Positions 5,113 to 34,882 of a stretch of DNA of 44,476 bases are shown here, one piece after another. Source of the stretch: Thioalkalivibrio halophilus (GTDB lineage Bacteria > Pseudomonadota > Gammaproteobacteria > Ectothiorhodospirales > Ectothiorhodospiraceae); NCBI RefSeq assembly GCF_001995255.1, contig NZ_MUZR01000040.1:1-44476 (forward strand). Direction: 5' to 3'. The translations under genes were made by a program, and so were the position numbers. A model generated the notes under the pieces. The model searched no databases and had not been told where the DNA came from. It saw only the letters and a program-made list of their open reading frames with translations. Each line of letters begins with the position of its first letter. Within the stretch, counting starts at the first letter, position 1.

Positions 5113-6011
5113 TGCTGCGTATTGCCGGAATTGCCGTGGTGGTCATCGGGATCGTCGTGGCCCTGTCGACCTACACCGTTGACGAGCGCGAGCGCGTGAT
5201 CAAGTTCGCCCTGGGGGAACTGCGCGAGGTGGACCAGGAGCCGGGGCTGCATTTCAAGTTCCCGCTGATCCAGAACGTCGAGAAGTTCGATGCCCGGATC
5301 ATGACCCTGAACATCCCGCCGGACCGGTTCCTGACCAGCGAGGCGAAGAACATCATCGTGGATTTCTACGCCAAGTGGCGGATCAACGATGTCGGTCAGT
5401 TCTACCGCGCCACCCGCGGTGACGAACGACTGGCCGAGGAGCGCCTGTCGCAGATCCTGCGGGACGGCATGCGTAACGAATTCGCCCGCTACGAGCTGCA
5501 GGACGTGGTCGCCGGCGAGCGCCTGACCATCATGGGCGCGGTGCGCCAGGCCGCCCTGGAGACGGCGCTGGAGCTGGGGGTCGATCTGGTGGATGTGCGC
5601 ATCCGTCGCATGGATCTGCCGGACGAGGTCTCCGAGTCGGTGTTCGACCGGATGCGGGCCGAGCGCGAGCGTGTGGCGCAGGACTTCCGCGCCCGGGGGC
5701 AGGAGGAGGCCGAGCGGATTCGTTCGCGTGCCGACCGCGATCGCACGGTGATCCTGGCGAACGCGTACCGTGACTCCGAGGTGATCCGCGGGGAGGGTGA
5801 TGCCCGGGCTACCGAGATCCTGGGTACCTCCTTCGGCGAAGATGAAGAGTTCTTCCGCTTCTATCGCAGCCTGATCGCCTACCGCAACAGCCTGCAGGGC
5901 GAGAACAGCACGTTCGTGCTGGAACCGAACTCGGAGTTCTTCCAGTTCTTCAACGCTCCGGGCGGCGAGCGTCCGTCCCGGACTCCGCAGCTGCCGCAGC
6001 CCGCCGAGTGA
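5112..6011 (+). CDS. hflC: FtsH protease modulator HflC
   Basis: A 299-residue partner of HflK in the SPFH family. An N-terminal transmembrane helix (residues 1-20) is followed by VDERERVIKFALGE and the SPFH core with Y-A-K-W-R-I-N-D. The helical region carries ARGQEEAERIRSRADRDRTVILANAYRDSEVIRGEGDA, the HflC signature, and the end (SEFFQFFN) is typical. Length is somewhat shorter than E. coli HflC (334). Two hairpins follow, the second with a short T-rich tail, so the hflKC unit probably ends before hisZ. Confidence 0.96.
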   Translation: MLRIAGIAVVVIGIVVALSTYTVDERERVIKFALGELREVDQEPGLHFKFPLIQNVEKFDARIMTLNIPPDRFLTSEAKNIIVDFYAKWRINDVGQFYRATRGDERLAEERLSQILRDGMRNEFARYELQDVVAGERLTIMGAVRQAALETALELGVDLVDVRIRRMDLPDEVSESVFDRMRAERERVAQDFRARGQEEAERIRSRADRDRTVILANAYRDSEVIRGEGDARATEILGTSFGEDEEFFRFYRSLIAYRNSLQGENSTFVLEPNSEFFQFFNAPGGERPSRTPQLPQPAE

Positions 6012-6140: not shown

Positions 6141-8626
<2,486 letters not shown>

Positions 8627-18841: not shown

Positions 18842-20314
18842 ATGTCGAGCGACTCGGACAACCGGTGCGTCAAGTCTGCGCGCCGCCGGCCGCGCTGGCG
18901 CATTCTGCTGACGGTCGTCATCGGGTTCCACCTGCTGGGGTTCCTTTCGTCGCTGGATGCGCTGATGTCCACCCGGACGCCGCAAGGGGCGGTTGCCTGG
19001 ATCGTCTCGCTCAACACCGTGCCCTATGTGGCGGTGCCGACCTACTGGGTCTTCGGCGCCAGCGAGTTTCGCGGCTATGTCGTGGCGCGGCGCGACGAGG
19101 ACTCGAGTCTCGCCCGCGCGCTGCAGCCGAAGACCGAGGAGCTGTGGTCACACCAGTACGTCGCGCAGGAACCGAGCAAGCACCTGGACGGCGTACAGCA
19201 GCTCGCCCGCTGGCCGTTTCTCCACGGTAACGAGGTCGAGCTGCTGGTGGACGGCGAGGCGACCTTCGACAGCATCTTCCGGGGGATCGAGCAGGCCGAG
19301 CGCTACCTGCTGGTGCAGTTCTATATCGTGCGTGACGACGATCTCGGGCGCGAACTCCAGCGGCGGCTGGTGGAGCGTGCCGAGGCCGGCGTCGACGTCT
19401 ATTTCCTGTATGACGAGATCGGGAGCTACCGCCTGCCCGGGAGCTACCTGGACACCCTGCGGGAGGCGGGCGTCCATGTGCAGCACTTTCACTCCACCCG
19501 CGGACGCGGCAATCGCTTCCAGCTGAACTTCCGCAATCATCGCAAGATCGTGGTCGCCGATGGCGAGCAGGCCTGGGTCGGCGGGCTGAACGTGGGCGAA
19601 GAGTACCTGGGCGGCGATCCGGAAATCGGTGCCTGGCGCGACACCCACCTGCGGATTGCGGGGCCGTCCGCCCTCGCGTTGCAGTCGGTGTTCCTGGAGG
19701 ACTGGCACTGGGCCACCGAGGCGGTCCCGGAGCTGGAATGGAAGCCGGCGACCATGGCGGAGGACGGGGTCCCGGTGTTGATCCTGCCCTCAGGACCGGC
19801 CGACGAATTCGAGACCGCCAGCCTGATGATGCAGCAGGCGATCCATTCCGCCGAGCGGCGCATCTGGATCGCCAGCCCGTATTTTGTGCCCGACGAGGGC
19901 GTGCAGGGCATGCTCAAGCTGGCCGCACTCAGCGGCGTCGACGTGCGCGTGCTGATCCCCGAGGTCACCGACAACCCGCTGACCACGCATGCGGCCTATG
20001 CCTTCCTGGGACCACTGCTGGATGCCGGTGTGCGCGTCTACCGTTACCAGGAAGGCTTCCTGCACGGCAAGGCGTTCGTGGTGGACGACATGGGCGCGGC
20101 GGTGGGGACCGTGAACCTGGACAACCGCTCGTTCCGGCTCAATTTCGAGGTCACGGCACTGGTGCTGGACCCGGCCTTTGCCAGCGAGACCGCCCGCATG
20201 TTCGAGGCCGATTTTGCGCGTTCGCGCGAGATGACCCGGCAGGACGTGGACGACCTTCCGTTATGGCGCCGGGTGGCCGCGCGCGCCGCCTATCTGCTGG
20301 CGCCGGTGCTGTAG
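18842..20314 (+). CDS. cls: Cardiolipin synthase (PLD family)
   Basis: A 490-residue inner-membrane phosphatidyltransferase that joins two phosphatidylglycerol molecules into cardiolipin. Two N-terminal transmembrane helices (about 18-40 and 50-72) are followed by two PLD domains. The HKD motifs are H233-R-K-I-V-V-A-D with GGLNVGEEYLG, and H408-G-K-A-F-V-V-D with GTVNLDNRSF. Length is close to E. coli ClsA (486), so ClsA-type is the best call. It may serve osmotic or alkaline adaptation, which is inference only. Confidence 0.93.
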   Translation: MSSDSDNRCVKSARRRPRWRILLTVVIGFHLLGFLSSLDALMSTRTPQGAVAWIVSLNTVPYVAVPTYWVFGASEFRGYVVARRDEDSSLARALQPKTEELWSHQYVAQEPSKHLDGVQQLARWPFLHGNEVELLVDGEATFDSIFRGIEQAERYLLVQFYIVRDDDLGRELQRRLVERAEAGVDVYFLYDEIGSYRLPGSYLDTLREAGVHVQHFHSTRGRGNRFQLNFRNHRKIVVADGEQAWVGGLNVGEEYLGGDPEIGAWRDTHLRIAGPSALALQSVFLEDWHWATEAVPELEWKPATMAEDGVPVLILPSGPADEFETASLMMQQAIHSAERRIWIASPYFVPDEGVQGMLKLAALSGVDVRVLIPEVTDNPLTTHAAYAFLGPLLDAGVRVYRYQEGFLHGKAFVVDDMGAAVGTVNLDNRSFRLNFEVTALVLDPAFASETARMFEADFARSREMTRQDVDDLPLWRRVAARAAYLLAPVL

Positions 20315-30300: not shown

Positions 30301-30474
30301 TCTTTACGTGTCTTTCCGCATGGCGACCCGAGCGGTCCGGCGGCCACCGGCCTCGCAGCCGCGCCATGAGTTCCCTCTCCCTCCCGCATGCTTCCCCCAC
30401 CGGCGGTTCTGCCCGAAGCCGGATTGCGCCATGCTACATTGATGGCCTCTGCGGCGCGGTGCGGAGCACGATCA

Positions 30475-30894
30475 ATGACGGATGCCCTGACAATCGAGAC
30501 GATCACCGAGCGGGTCCAGAGGGTGTTCGCGCGTTACCGCGAAGTGGATGCGGTCTTTCTGTTCGGCTCTCGCGCGGAGGGTCGGGCGCGGGAGGGCAGT
30601 GACATCGATCTCGCGCTGGTCGGCCCCGCCGGGGCGATCGAGCCGCGCCGCCTGGACATCCTGACGGATCTGGCGCGGGAAGGGCTGGATGCGGTGGATC
30701 TGGTGCTGCTCGATGGCGCGGATCCGGCATTGCGTTTCGAGGCCGTACGGCCGAACTGCCTGCTGCATGCCGGGCCCGACTTCGATCGGGGCAGTTACTA
30801 CTCGCTTGCGCTGCGGGAATACTTCGATTTCGAACCCTACCTCCGTGTCCAGCGCGAGGCCCTGAAGGAAAGGCTGCTCGATGGTCAGGCCTGA
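30475..30894 (+). CDS. MNT-domain nucleotidyltransferase antitoxin (MntA-like)
   Basis: A 139-residue minimal nucleotidyltransferase. G31-S32 and D43-x-D45 form the GSx10DxD motif (LFGSRAEGRAREGSDIDLAL), and a later Asp in AVDLVLLD could be the third metal ligand. In known MntA/HepT pairs the MNT protein transfers AMP groups to the HEPN toxin and so silences it. The gene overlaps the HEPN gene by 14 bases. ATG 30475 gives a typical short N-terminus. The 174 bases between the last tRNA and this gene show no gene. Confidence 0.85.
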   Translation: MTDALTIETITERVQRVFARYREVDAVFLFGSRAEGRAREGSDIDLALVGPAGAIEPRRLDILTDLAREGLDAVDLVLLDGADPALRFEAVRPNCLLHAGPDFDRGSYYSLALREYFDFEPYLRVQREALKERLLDGQA

Positions 30895-31294
30895 AGTCAT
30901 CCGCAGACGCATCGAGGCCGTCTCTGAGAACCTCGAGGTCCTCGAACGGCTTGCGCGGTACGACGAGGACGAGTTCCTCGCTGACCCGGAGCATTACGGT
31001 AGCGCCGAACGCTTCCTCCAGCTTGCGCTGGAAGCGCTGCTGGACATGGGCAGCCACGTGATCGCGGACAATGGTCTGGGCTCGGTGAACCAGGGGCGGG
31101 ACATCCCCCGTCTGTTCCGCGAACACGGGTACATTGACAGCGCGCTGGAAGAAAAATGGCTGCGGATGATCGGTTTCCGAAACATCCTGGTCCATGCCTA
31201 CCTGCAGCTGGATCGCAGGCAGGTGTACCAGGTCCTGTGCAATGACCTCGCTGACATTCGTGCCCTGCAGCGGACATTCGCGAGTTTCCTCTGA
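30881..31294 (+). CDS. HEPN-domain toxin, HepT-like RNase
   Basis: A 137-residue helical HEPN protein of the DUF86 (HepT/YutE-like) type. The RNase motif Rx4HxY is intact: R100, H105 and Y107 in RNILVHAY. In characterised pairs the Tyr of this motif is AMPylated by MntA. It overlaps its partner at the start, so both are coupled. The pair sits directly downstream of four tRNA genes and upstream of a converging housekeeping gene, which is consistent with insertion of a small mobile module. Confidence 0.87.
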   Translation: MVRPEVIRRRIEAVSENLEVLERLARYDEDEFLADPEHYGSAERFLQLALEALLDMGSHVIADNGLGSVNQGRDIPRLFREHGYIDSALEEKWLRMIGFRNILVHAYLQLDRRQVYQVLCNDLADIRALQRTFASFL

Positions 31295-32813: not shown

Positions 32814-33125
32814 TTACTTGCCCAGCCCGGGGGCCGAGGAGTAGGCCCGCATGCTGTCGCGGTCCTTCCACAGCTTCGGTTGCAGCACCGACTCCGGGAC
32901 CATGAATTTCTTGCGGTCCAGGACCTTGTGGGTGCGAGCAATCTTCACCACGTTGTCGTACTTGAGCTTGAACAGCAGGCCCACGTCGCCGCCGGAGGTG
33001 TAGCGAACGATCATGTGATCGTCCTCCATGCGATGGACGTAGATGTTCGCCGGGCGCAGCTTGCCCTGGCCATCCTTCATCGTCACGGCGTAGTGGCCGT
33101 CTACCTGGAAATCACTCTTTTCCAC
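32814..33125 (-). CDS. Conserved-looking small protein of unknown function
   Basis: A 103-residue protein I do not recognise. It starts at GTG 33125, preceded by GGAGGA about 8 bases upstream. The sequence alternates short beta-like stretches (HYAVTMKDG, ANIYVHRMED, HMIVRYTSGG, LLFKLKYDNVVKIART) and has no Cys, signal peptide or membrane helix, so a small cytoplasmic beta-barrel is likely. It is transcribed away from the rhodanese-tusA-hdr unit, and the dyad at 33211 lies between the two. The protease gene follows 55 bases downstream. Function in sulfur metabolism is only suggested by position. Confidence 0.7.
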   Translation of the reverse strand: MEKSDFQVDGHYAVTMKDGQGKLRPANIYVHRMEDDHMIVRYTSGGDVGLLFKLKYDNVVKIARTHKVLDRKKFMVPESVLQPKLWKDRDSMRAYSSAPGLGK

Positions 33126-33210
33126 CGGAAAATCCTCCGCAGGACTGTTTAGGCGGGCGTGACCTTACCACGTCTGACCGCCGCGGGCGAGACCGGTTCC
33201 CTCGGCCGGT

Positions 33211-33226
33211 GTTGCCGAATGGTAAC
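33211..33226. promoter_or_regulatory. Dyad GTTGCC-N4-GGTAAC, candidate operator (copy 1)
   Basis: Imperfect palindrome in the divergent gap, about 55 bases upstream of the predicted rhodanese transcript start and about 90 bases from the minus-strand gene start. It matches the copy at 34091 at 11 of the 12 half-site bases. A regulator-binding role is inference. Confidence 0.45.
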
Positions 33227-33245
33227 GTCAGTCGCCCGCAACCAT

Positions 33246-33273
33246 TTGCAATTGTGCGCGGTTTCGATATGCT
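33246..33273 (+). promoter_or_regulatory. Predicted promoter of the rhodanese gene
   Basis: TTGCAA (33246-33251), 16-base spacer, TATGCT (33268-33273). It fits transcription of the rhodanese gene from about 33280. Confidence 0.5.
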
Positions 33274-33360
33274 CCGCGCCCACCGTGTGCGTGGCCTTTA
33301 TGCATGGGTAGCGCGCACCTGCTACACCGCCCGGAAATCAACCGGAAACTGGAGCTGGCC

Positions 33361-33690
33361 GTGTACGGATTCTCGGAAATCACCCCGGATGAACTGGAGC
33401 AGTGGCGCACTGAGGGTCGGGATTTCCGGCTGGTGGATGTGCGTCAGCCGGCCGAGACCGGCCGCGGGGTGATCCCGGACGCCGAACTCGTGCCCCTGGC
33501 GGCCGTGCCGCCGCGCAAGGACGAGTTCAGCGGAGATGAGACCCCCGTGGTGTTCTATTGCCAGAGCGGGGCGCGTTCGGCCCAGGCCTGCGCCTTCATG
33601 TCCCAGCAGGGCGTGGAGGGCGTGTATAACCTGCGGGGCGGCATCATGGGCTGGGCGCAGTCCGGCCGCTCGATTGTTACGCCCGATTAG
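33361..33690 (+). CDS. Single-domain rhodanese (sulfurtransferase)
   Basis: A 109-residue rhodanese with active-site loop C67-Q-S-G-A-R in VVFYCQSGARSAQACAF, plus RLVDVRQPAE and NLRGGIMGWAQ. The GTG at 33361 is chosen because GGAG lies 6 bases upstream and the protein then starts just before the domain. ATG 33304 in the same frame lacks a ribosome site. It precedes tusA by 104 bases. In sulfur oxidisers rhodanese, TusA and DsrE-type proteins form a relay that hands sulfane sulfur on to Dsr or sHdr. Here it would feed TusA. Confidence 0.88.
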   Translation: MYGFSEITPDELEQWRTEGRDFRLVDVRQPAETGRGVIPDAELVPLAAVPPRKDEFSGDETPVVFYCQSGARSAQACAFMSQQGVEGVYNLRGGIMGWAQSGRSIVTPD

Positions 33691-33697
33691 CATCTGG

Positions 33698-33726
33698 TTG
33701 TATTCCGATTCCGTTTCCCCTATAAG
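33698..33726 (+). promoter_or_regulatory. Predicted promoter of tusA
   Basis: TTGTAT (33698-33703), 17-base spacer, TATAAG (33721-33726). It gives tusA its own start about 60 bases before the ATG. A short dyad GACCG-GTAA-CGGTC (33747-33760) follows in the leader. Confidence 0.55.
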
Positions 33727-33794
33727 GGGGAGTTCGGCGGATCCACGACCGGTAACGGTCAACCATTACGAAGACTCACAAAGGAGAGAAAGCC

Positions 33795-34025
33795 ATGGCC
33801 AACTTCGATCAAGAGCTCGACGCCTCCGGCCTGAACTGCCCGCTGCCCATCCTGCGTGCCAAGAAGGCGCTGGCCTCCATGGATGCCGGTCAGGTGCTGC
33901 ACATCATCGCCACTGACCCGGGCGCGGTGAAGGACTTCCAGGCGTTCGCCAAGCAGACCGGCAACGAACTGATGGAGCACAAGGAAGAGGGCGGCAAGTT
34001 CTACTTCCTGGTCAAGAAGGCCTGA
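33795..34025 (+). CDS. tusA: Sulfur carrier protein TusA
   Basis: A 76-residue sulfur carrier. The persulfide cysteine is C15 in LNCPLPILRAKKAL, the CPxP signature. The rest (GQVLHIIATDPGAVKDFQAFAKQTGNEL) is classical TusA. AAAGGAG lies about 9 bases before the ATG. It should take sulfur from the rhodanese next door and pass it to DsrE and the sHdr/LbpA proteins. A 12-bp hairpin after the stop separates it from hdrC1, which agrees with a higher level of tusA transcript. Confidence 0.97.
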   Translation: MANFDQELDASGLNCPLPILRAKKALASMDAGQVLHIIATDPGAVKDFQAFAKQTGNELMEHKEEGGKFYFLVKKA

Positions 34026-34043
34026 GGTCTCCTGACGCATCGA

Positions 34044-34077
34044 AGCCCGGGGCCGGTCTCGCGAACGGCCCCGGGCT
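34044..34077 (+). terminator. Strong hairpin between tusA and hdrC1
   Basis: A perfect 12-bp GC stem (34044-34055 with 34066-34077, 10-base loop) just after tusA. No T-run follows, so it may be a partial terminator or an RNA-stability element. Confidence 0.45.
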
Positions 34078-34090
34078 GCCGGTAGACGCG

Positions 34091-34106
34091 GTTACCGTGA
34101 GGTAAC
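34091..34106. promoter_or_regulatory. Dyad GTTACC-N4-GGTAAC, candidate operator (copy 2)
   Basis: Perfect 6-bp half-sites around a 4-base centre, about 84 bases before the hdrC1 start. It shares pattern and spacing with the copy at 33211. I see no strong -35/-10 pair right beside it. Confidence 0.45.
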
Positions 34107-34189
34107 TGGATTGATGCCTGGACCCGATCTAGGCTGGCTGCAAGGTCCGTACAAAAGAGGCCTGCTCGCCCACAGCGAAGAGGTGACAT

Positions 34190-34882
34190 ATGGCGACATA
34201 TGCTGAGATGCAGCAAATCTTCGACGACATCCGCGGAGATTTTCGCTACGACCATGATCTCAACGGCTGCCTGAACTGCGGGATCTGCACGGCGACGTGC
34301 CCTTCCGCCCAGTTCTACGACTACTCCCCGCGCGAGATCGTCCAGCTGCTCTGGACGGAGAACGTCGAGCAGATCTACGACGCGATGCAGGAAAAGATCT
34401 GGGCCTGCGCCCAGTGCATGACCTGCGCCGCCCGCTGCCCGTTCAAGAACTCCCCCGGCGGTCTCGTCGCGATCATGCGCGAGGTGGCCATCAAGCACGA
34501 GATGCAGTCGGCCAAGGACGTTCTTCGTCCGTTCGGGCGCGTGATGCTCAAGCTGATCACGACGGGTAACCAGCTTTCGCCCGACATGATCCAGCCCGAT
34601 CACTTCCCGGACTGGGGTCCCAATATCCAGAAGGTGGAAGGCGATCTCCAGGTGCTGCGCAAGGCCATCCCGGTGAAGACCCTGCAGACCGTGGAAACGG
34701 CCTGGGAGGTCTCGCTCAAGACTTCGGTCGAGATGTACACCATCTGGGAAATGACCGGCGTTCTGAAGTCCCTCGAACTGATGGATGAAAACCTCTTTGA
34801 CGTGATCGAGGACTTCATCGACGAGAAGCGCGAGGATTACGAAGACTGGCTCGAGGAGCAGGAAGAGGAAGACGACGAGTAA
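34190..34882 (+). CDS. hdrC1: sHdr iron-sulfur subunit HdrC1
   Basis: A 230-residue protein with two [4Fe-4S] motifs, C27-x2-C30-x2-C33-x3-C37 and C73-x2-C76-x2-C79-x3-C83, each followed by Pro. It has the HdrC-like helical body and a very acidic C-terminal tail (EDWLEEQEEEDDE). In sulfur-oxidising bacteria HdrC1B1A-hyp-C2B2 form a cytoplasmic complex that oxidises LbpA-bound sulfur to sulfite. It carries electrons between the HdrB and HdrA centres. The start follows a GAGGTG ribosome site. First gene of the core operon. Confidence 0.93.
   Translation: MATYAEMQQIFDDIRGDFRYDHDLNGCLNCGICTATCPSAQFYDYSPREIVQLLWTENVEQIYDAMQEKIWACAQCMTCAARCPFKNSPGGLVAIMREVAIKHEMQSAKDVLRPFGRVMLKLITTGNQLSPDMIQPDHFPDWGPNIQKVEGDLQVLRKAIPVKTLQTVETAWEVSLKTSVEMYTIWEMTGVLKSLELMDENLFDVIEDFIDEKREDYEDWLEEQEEEDDE

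Follow-up and report, generated by a model that had tools for sequence, protein, structure and literature searches.

The sHdr locus of Thioalkalivibrio halophilus carries at its head two copies of the same 16-bp inverted repeat, one in the divergent gap before a rhodanese gene and one in the leader of hdrC1. This raises the question of whether these dyads are operators and, if so, of what kind of regulator. An earlier note on the 44,476-nucleotide window (the whole stretch of DNA analysed, contig NZ_MUZR01000040.1) had read them as a shared operator pair in front of two transcription units, to be bound by an ArsR-type repressor of the sHdrR kind or by another factor. In the reading favoured here, to which we assign a probability of roughly 0.6, the hdrC1 copy would be an operator, at which a dimeric, sequence-specific transcription factor binds the sHdr operon promoter. 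The gene order of that operon is given as hdrC1B1A-hyp-hdrC2B2-lbpA1-dsrE-lbpA2 in the available text of PMC6382920. The features discussed below are listed in Table 1.

Table 1. Coordinates of the dyads, promoter-like elements and genes at the head of the sHdr locus (window positions), and of tandem dyads at arx-type or linked loci (locus positions)
Feature	Position	Strand	Remarks
Dyad GTTGCC-N4-GGTAAC, divergent gap before rhodanese gene	33211-33226		Exact; lineage-specific
Promoter-like TTGCAA-N16-TATGCT, rhodanese gene	33246-33273	+	Similar boxes in 16/23 genomes (by eye); predicted position
Rhodanese gene	33304-33690	+	Pfam PF00581
Promoter-like TTGTAT-N17-TATAAG, tusA	33698-33726	+	TATAAG in 22/23 genomes (by eye)
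tusA	33795-34025	+	Pfam PF01206
GC-rich stem 3' of tusA, terminator-like position	34045-34076	+	Without U-run here; U-run in relative L118
Dyad GTTACC-N4-GGTAAC, proposed operator, hdrC1 leader	34091-34106		Core of conserved block GGTTRCC-N4-GGTAACTGGA (34090-34110)
-35-like hexamer TGGATT, abuts dyad	34107-34112	+	TGG unchanged in 23 leaders; -35 assigned from 17-bp spacing
Second inverted repeat CCTGGAC-N3-RTCTAGG, overlaps -10-like element	34117-34133		Imperfect in this strain
-10-like hexamer TAGGCT	34130-34135	+	T1, A2 and T6 invariant across 23 leaders, middle bases variable
hdrC1, first gene of sHdr operon	34190-34882	+	4Fe-4S dicluster matches (Pfam)
Tandem dyads, L061	4226-4284		Both copies exact
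Tandem dyads, L062	4298-4355		Both copies exact
Tandem dyads, L063	7443-7500		Both copies exact
Tandem dyads, L064	4401-4461		One exact, one with 1 mismatch
Tandem dyads, L065	4147-4205		One exact, one with 1 mismatch
Tandem dyads, L100 (T. halophilus), first pair	6540-6598		1-2 mismatches each
Tandem dyads, L100 (T. halophilus), second pair	7812-7871		1-2 mismatches each

Two exact dyads of unequal standing

Both dyads are exact where the earlier note had placed them (with spacers GAAT at 33211 and GTGA at 34091), and its statement that the window holds no other full dyad agrees with the scan, in which the next best matches, at 19216 and 25919, have two mismatches each. A first-order Markov model of the window's composition predicts 0.0016 exact sites per window and 0.10 per 2.87-Mb genome, and the probability of at least two in the window is about 1.2e-6. 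When one half-site is relaxed on either side, the T. halophilus genome contains three exact sites, namely the two in the window and a third on contig 17, which falls within a coding frame; no exact site matches the reversed control pattern. Two of the three lie in the 444 intergenic bases that head the sHdr locus. For these bases 1.6e-5 exact dyads are expected, a generous figure since the window was picked for its sites, and the rhodanese-side dyad is unlikely to have arisen by chance. Loose versions are not in excess. Up to two mismatches, there are seven matches in the window against 2.6 expected, and 6 of 100 shuffles reach seven. Up to one mismatch, and among the matches listed, the reversed control outnumbers the motif in 24 of the 30 genomes of the genus, equals it in two and falls below it in four, T. 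halophilus being one of these four. The motif is therefore special by its exactness and its place and not by its overall frequency.

By alignment with relatives, the two dyads are not equivalent: the hdrC1 dyad is a conserved cis-element, and the rhodanese-side dyad is lineage-specific. The latter occurs in one of 23 genomes. The best match in each of the other 22 has three to five mismatches, as in shuffled sequence, and this includes G012, whose HdrC1 is 100% identical. As a conserved partner of the hdrC1 site it was accordingly rejected, and with it the idea of a shared operator pair serving both units. The two-unit description needs a correction: tusA has a conserved promoter-like box of its own, so it is the rhodanese gene, more than tusA, that the 33211 site directly precedes. 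From the predicted start of the rhodanese transcript the centre of the dyad is at about -61.5. Probably the hdrC1 factor has here a second site, gained in the lineage of this strain. Dyad-like sites are also present in the tusA leaders of the sister genomes G002 (L043; one mismatch) and G008 (L039; two mismatches), where GTAACCGTTCGGTAAC and ATTACCGTTCGGTAAT, respectively, lie directly past the tusA promoter-like box. Together with the 33211 dyad, these are candidate, unproven, lineage-specific extra sites. On the other side of the divergent gap, 32814-33125 encodes a small protein that lacks a Pfam match, and similar proteins occupy the same place in G040 and G009.

Conservation of the hdrC1 dyad

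A search with HdrC1 matched 29 of 30 genomes of the genus, 23 of them at nearly full length, and these 23 were used first; G007, G013 and G043, with hdrC1 genes at contig edges, were added later to give 26 leaders, and G006, G011, G023 and G044 were excluded because they offered no usable hdrC1 start. The dyad is exact in 20 of the 26 leaders, where it lies 92-101 bases upstream of the hdrC1 start codon. Four leaders have one mismatch, all reading GTTACC-CTGT-GGTAAA; G017 has two, and in G009 the site has decayed to four. All 12 named Thioalkalivibrio strain records in a separate collection, drawn from 80 fetched loci, have the exact dyad as well, though these records overlap with the same genomes.

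The pattern of change within the site was followed by parsimony on the HdrC1 tree of the 23 leaders. Half-site columns required 0.83 steps per column, compared with 2.0 for the spacer and 2.39 for the 105 other columns, so that change is about three times rarer in the half-sites than in the other leader columns, and most of the half-site change is A/G at position 4. Among the 17 leaders from genomes that lack a close ArxX homologue, the corresponding values are 0.33, 1.75 and 1.66. A set of 11 close relatives that lack arx shows no change in either half-sites or spacer and does not discriminate between them. When 97 leader windows of the same 6-4-6 shape were ranked by conservation, the dyad tied for second with four others; the other equally conserved blocks are the promoter-like boxes and the stretch before the start codon. 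At hdrC1, then, the half-sites are conserved, the spacer is freer and the position at the promoter is fixed. Judged in this way the hdrC1 dyad is a conserved cis-element of most of this soda-lake genus, and the expectation of the earlier note that the motif should be kept in close relatives is borne out for this copy, in both position and sequence.

In 28 loci of other genera (including Ectothiorhodospira and Acidithiobacillus), inspected with five from Thioalkalivibrio out of the 80 fetched, no full dyad was found in the 1.5 kb upstream of hdrC1, and five of the 28 have a two-mismatch match there. The T. sulfidiphilus locus (L124) has no dyad upstream of hdrC1, and that of T. denitrificans (L128) has a degenerate one (by eye). 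The extended motif appeared in two of 369 genomes sampled across the class, at hdrC1 in both, and these two are the sole Thioalkalivibrio members of the sample. Since the dyad is decayed in G009 and absent or degenerate elsewhere, sHdr in general does not need it.

The T. halophilus genome also carries dsrA (contig 6, 48315-49520), beside its sHdr locus, which makes the presence of both routes, rDsr and sHdr, probable. A link between dyad loss and rDsr was considered and set aside: the dyad is exact in four of seven dsrA-positive genomes compared with all 16 dsrA-negative ones (Fisher 0.02), or in 4/8 compared with 16/18 once the three later leaders are included (Fisher 0.05), and phylogeny confounds the association, since the decayed dyads of the tree all lie in one major clade.

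Promoter context and possible mode of action

The dyad abuts a -35-like hexamer that is followed, after 17 or 18 bases across the leaders, by a -10-like element of the form T-A-N3-T. From these boxes, transcription of hdrC1 is predicted to start near 34142, which would place the centre of the dyad at about -43.5. The promoter is weak by consensus, and a generic promoter scan reported none in 33130-34240. From its place at about -51 to -36, the bound factor may contact RNA polymerase at the weak -35 element and so activate transcription of hdrC1. Sites of activators that abut the -35 box are described as class II-like, and repressor sites more often overlap the core promoter or lie downstream of it. 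Because the dyad abuts a conserved -35/-10-like promoter with its centre at about -43.5, an activator appears somewhat more likely than a repressor. Clearly less likely than the favoured reading is a repressor that uses the same operator and, placed at the upstream edge of the -35 element, obstructs RNA polymerase; it would suit the contact between dyad and -35-like box and the presence of a second inverted repeat over the -10 element, but the -35 element seems too weak to require repression and the site lies upstream of the usual place for repressors.

The second repeat also bears on a different reading, in which the dyad acts not as a DNA operator but as a hairpin in the RNA, within a transcript that runs from tusA into hdrC1. 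Both repeats can fold as neighbouring hairpins, one pair of the second runs C-G, U-G and U-A across the genus, and the purine at position 4 of the dyad pairs with U as either G-U or A-U. The stem that follows tusA, moreover, has no U-run in this strain. In an alignment of 21 leaders (the set of 23 without the near-copies G001 and G040), 96.3% of cells are paired, a value reached by 1 of 500 shuffles, and three pairs have changed on both sides (6 of 500), although relatedness alone can raise both measures; further pair types show no excess, as 86 of 500 shuffles do as well. G015 and G017 have lost the outer G-C pair of the dyad, and no Rfam family reaches threshold (one sub-threshold match on the GC-rich stem was taken as chance). 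In L118 the tusA stop (5816) is followed first by a U-run terminator (5841-5862) and then by the dyad (5909), which puts the dyad there at a fresh promoter. This terminator, and the fact that the letters of the half-sites are conserved rather than their pairing alone, favour DNA over RNA, and the hairpin appears unlikely.

For an operator at the hdrC1 promoter the binding factor is not recognisably encoded nearby, and regulons with a single site and no linked regulator are unusual. The absence of a regulator gene from the window, as the earlier note had it, agrees with a Pfam scan of 60 of the 190 listed ORFs (a chosen subset, some of them spurious and many without a match), in which no transcription-factor domain was found and the sole HTH is that of RNase R. 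Among the other window genes, a nucleotidyltransferase (PF18765) and a HepT-like protein (PF01934) at 30388-31294 form a pair that resembles an MNT/HepT toxin-antitoxin module.

Candidate regulators and known systems

The ArsR-type repressor was the named candidate of the earlier note. A site for a repressor of the sHdrR/SqrR type that senses sulfane sulfur would agree with the action of the H. denitrificans sHdrR on shdr genes (PMC12423496, in the text available). HTH_5 has six matches in the T. halophilus genome, one of which, P0010 on contig 35, has a two-cysteine pattern of the SqrR/YgaV type (by eye) and is present in all 30 genomes of the genus. It is not linked to the locus, and no ArsR-type gene with two conserved cysteines was found near the shdr cluster among the 60 window ORFs. 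Linkage is a weak defining feature, however: the accessible part of PMC12423496 describes two-cysteine regulators as rarely encoded near shdr genes, which fits their absence from the window. What counts against P0010 is that its own leader, scanned in 24 genomes, has a best match with four or five mismatches in 23 and with two in G001, and that the protein is kept at 90% identity in G009, where the dyad has decayed, and at 91% in G011, which has no hdrC1. We therefore regard P0010 as a doubtful reader of the site; of the two readers first offered, it is the other factor that stands. No operator consensus for comparison appears in the available text on sHdrR (PMC12423496) or SoxR (PMC10451225). 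Genes near P0010 (G000 contig 35, L202/L204) are EnvC-like and CtpA-like (by eye), with no obvious link to sulfur genes. Regulators of the CRP/FNR type give seven matches in the genome, three of them strong, and nothing ties them to the site.

A second candidate comes from six loci, arx-type or linked to arx-type genes, at which the dyad, with zero to two mismatches per copy, stands in tandem at a distance of 42-45 bp. Downstream of the pair, a sigma-54 box (at least 9 of 11 positions) is present at five of these loci, L064 being the one where none was found. In L061-L064 and L100 the pairs are near or before genes for a 4Fe-4S protein and a molybdoenzyme, the molybdoenzymes of L061-L063 and L100 being 67-70% identical to that of L064. 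The pair of L065 lies ahead of a methyltransferase gene, and the binding-protein gene there has a single dyad in front of it; stretches around the binding-protein gene in G044, G018, G002 and G010 (L070, L072-L074) showed no dyad. Each of the six genomes has a PhnD-like binding-protein gene on the contig concerned. A kinase was likewise seen in all six, and an NtrC-type regulator in L064, L065 and L100. This arrangement matches the arxB2AB/arxXSR genes as described in the available part of PMC6549141. The arx naming follows gene content and the literature, since in NCBIfam the molybdoenzyme is nearest to ArrA, far below the cut-off. ArxR probably reads these tandem dyads, which would make them candidate ArxR enhancers. 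Such an enhancer role was called not demonstrated in the text available from two papers of 2019 (PMC6549141, PMC6683785), and the tandem dyads offer a testable prediction of it.

It could be that the hdrC1 site, too, is read by a response regulator of the AioR/ArxR type, namely ArxR in genomes that have it and a paralogue in the others, and that sulfur oxidation is thereby coupled to the sensing of arsenite or to a related signal. Besides the tandem dyads, with a sigma-54 box at five of the six loci, this would agree with the consensus GTT-N10-AAC and the 16-bp footprint reported for AioR, the homologue in aerobic arsenite oxidisers (PMC5335332, in the part available; further AioR papers are PMC6011840 and PMC7533571, and PMC5744179 is also cited), to which the hdrC1 dyad conforms. 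In the arx-less G040, one of 11 AAA-type activator C-termini, that of the conserved response regulator P0011, shares ISRKxLWER with the ArxR of G009 and G019, so that its recognition helix is ArxR-like. Against this, just seven of 30 genomes have an ArxX homologue of nearly full length (44-100% identity), and the hdrC1 dyad is exact in five of six arx-positive and 15 of 17 arx-negative genomes (15 of 20 with the three added leaders); conversely, G009 has arx and a decayed dyad. ArxR is thus not present wherever the hdrC1 site is kept, and since dyad quality is unrelated to the presence of ArxX, the hdrC1 factor is not necessarily ArxR, whose candidacy was lowered on this account. The best matches to ArxR are 45-47% identical in G040, G005 and G012 compared with 56-75% in G000 and G009. 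As a paralogue, P0011 is uninformative because 29 of 30 genomes carry it whatever the state of the dyad, and in the three genomes scanned its neighbourhood has no dyad within one mismatch. No sigma-54 box was found in any of the 23 hdrC1 leaders. A regulator of this type at hdrC1 is consequently improbable, though slightly less so than P0010. The fuller proposal, that sHdr sulfur oxidation is wired to an AioR/ArxR-class regulator reading an arsenite-oxidase operator at a sigma-70 promoter, is speculative and we consider it as doubtful as P0010; if it were true, arsenic and sulfur chemolithotrophy would use one common DNA code. Among the literature matches listed, mostly at listing level, no report was found of an ArxR/AioR site tied to sulfur genes or of the hdrC1 dyad itself.

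Whatever the factor, the proposed operator provides a 16-bp bait, complete with natural decayed variants, for finding the sHdr regulator in gammaproteobacteria; the shdr regulators of the cited literature, sHdrR and SoxR, are from an alphaproteobacterium. Compared with the operators of sHdrR, SoxR and SqrR, the site would likewise front shdr genes in a genus that has a two-cysteine ArsR protein, but the gene for that protein is not linked and its leader lacks the motif. With the sigma-54 sites of AioR and ArxR the hdrC1 site shares a 16-bp dyad with GTT...AAC ends and the half-site and spacing of the arx loci. Unlike them, it is single, stands at a sigma-70-like promoter with no sigma-54 box and persists in genomes that have no ArxX homologue, and by eye its spacer departs from the detailed AioR motif given in the available text of PMC5335332. 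In position, with its centre near -43.5 from a start site that is itself predicted, the hdrC1 dyad is like the class II-like sites of activators.
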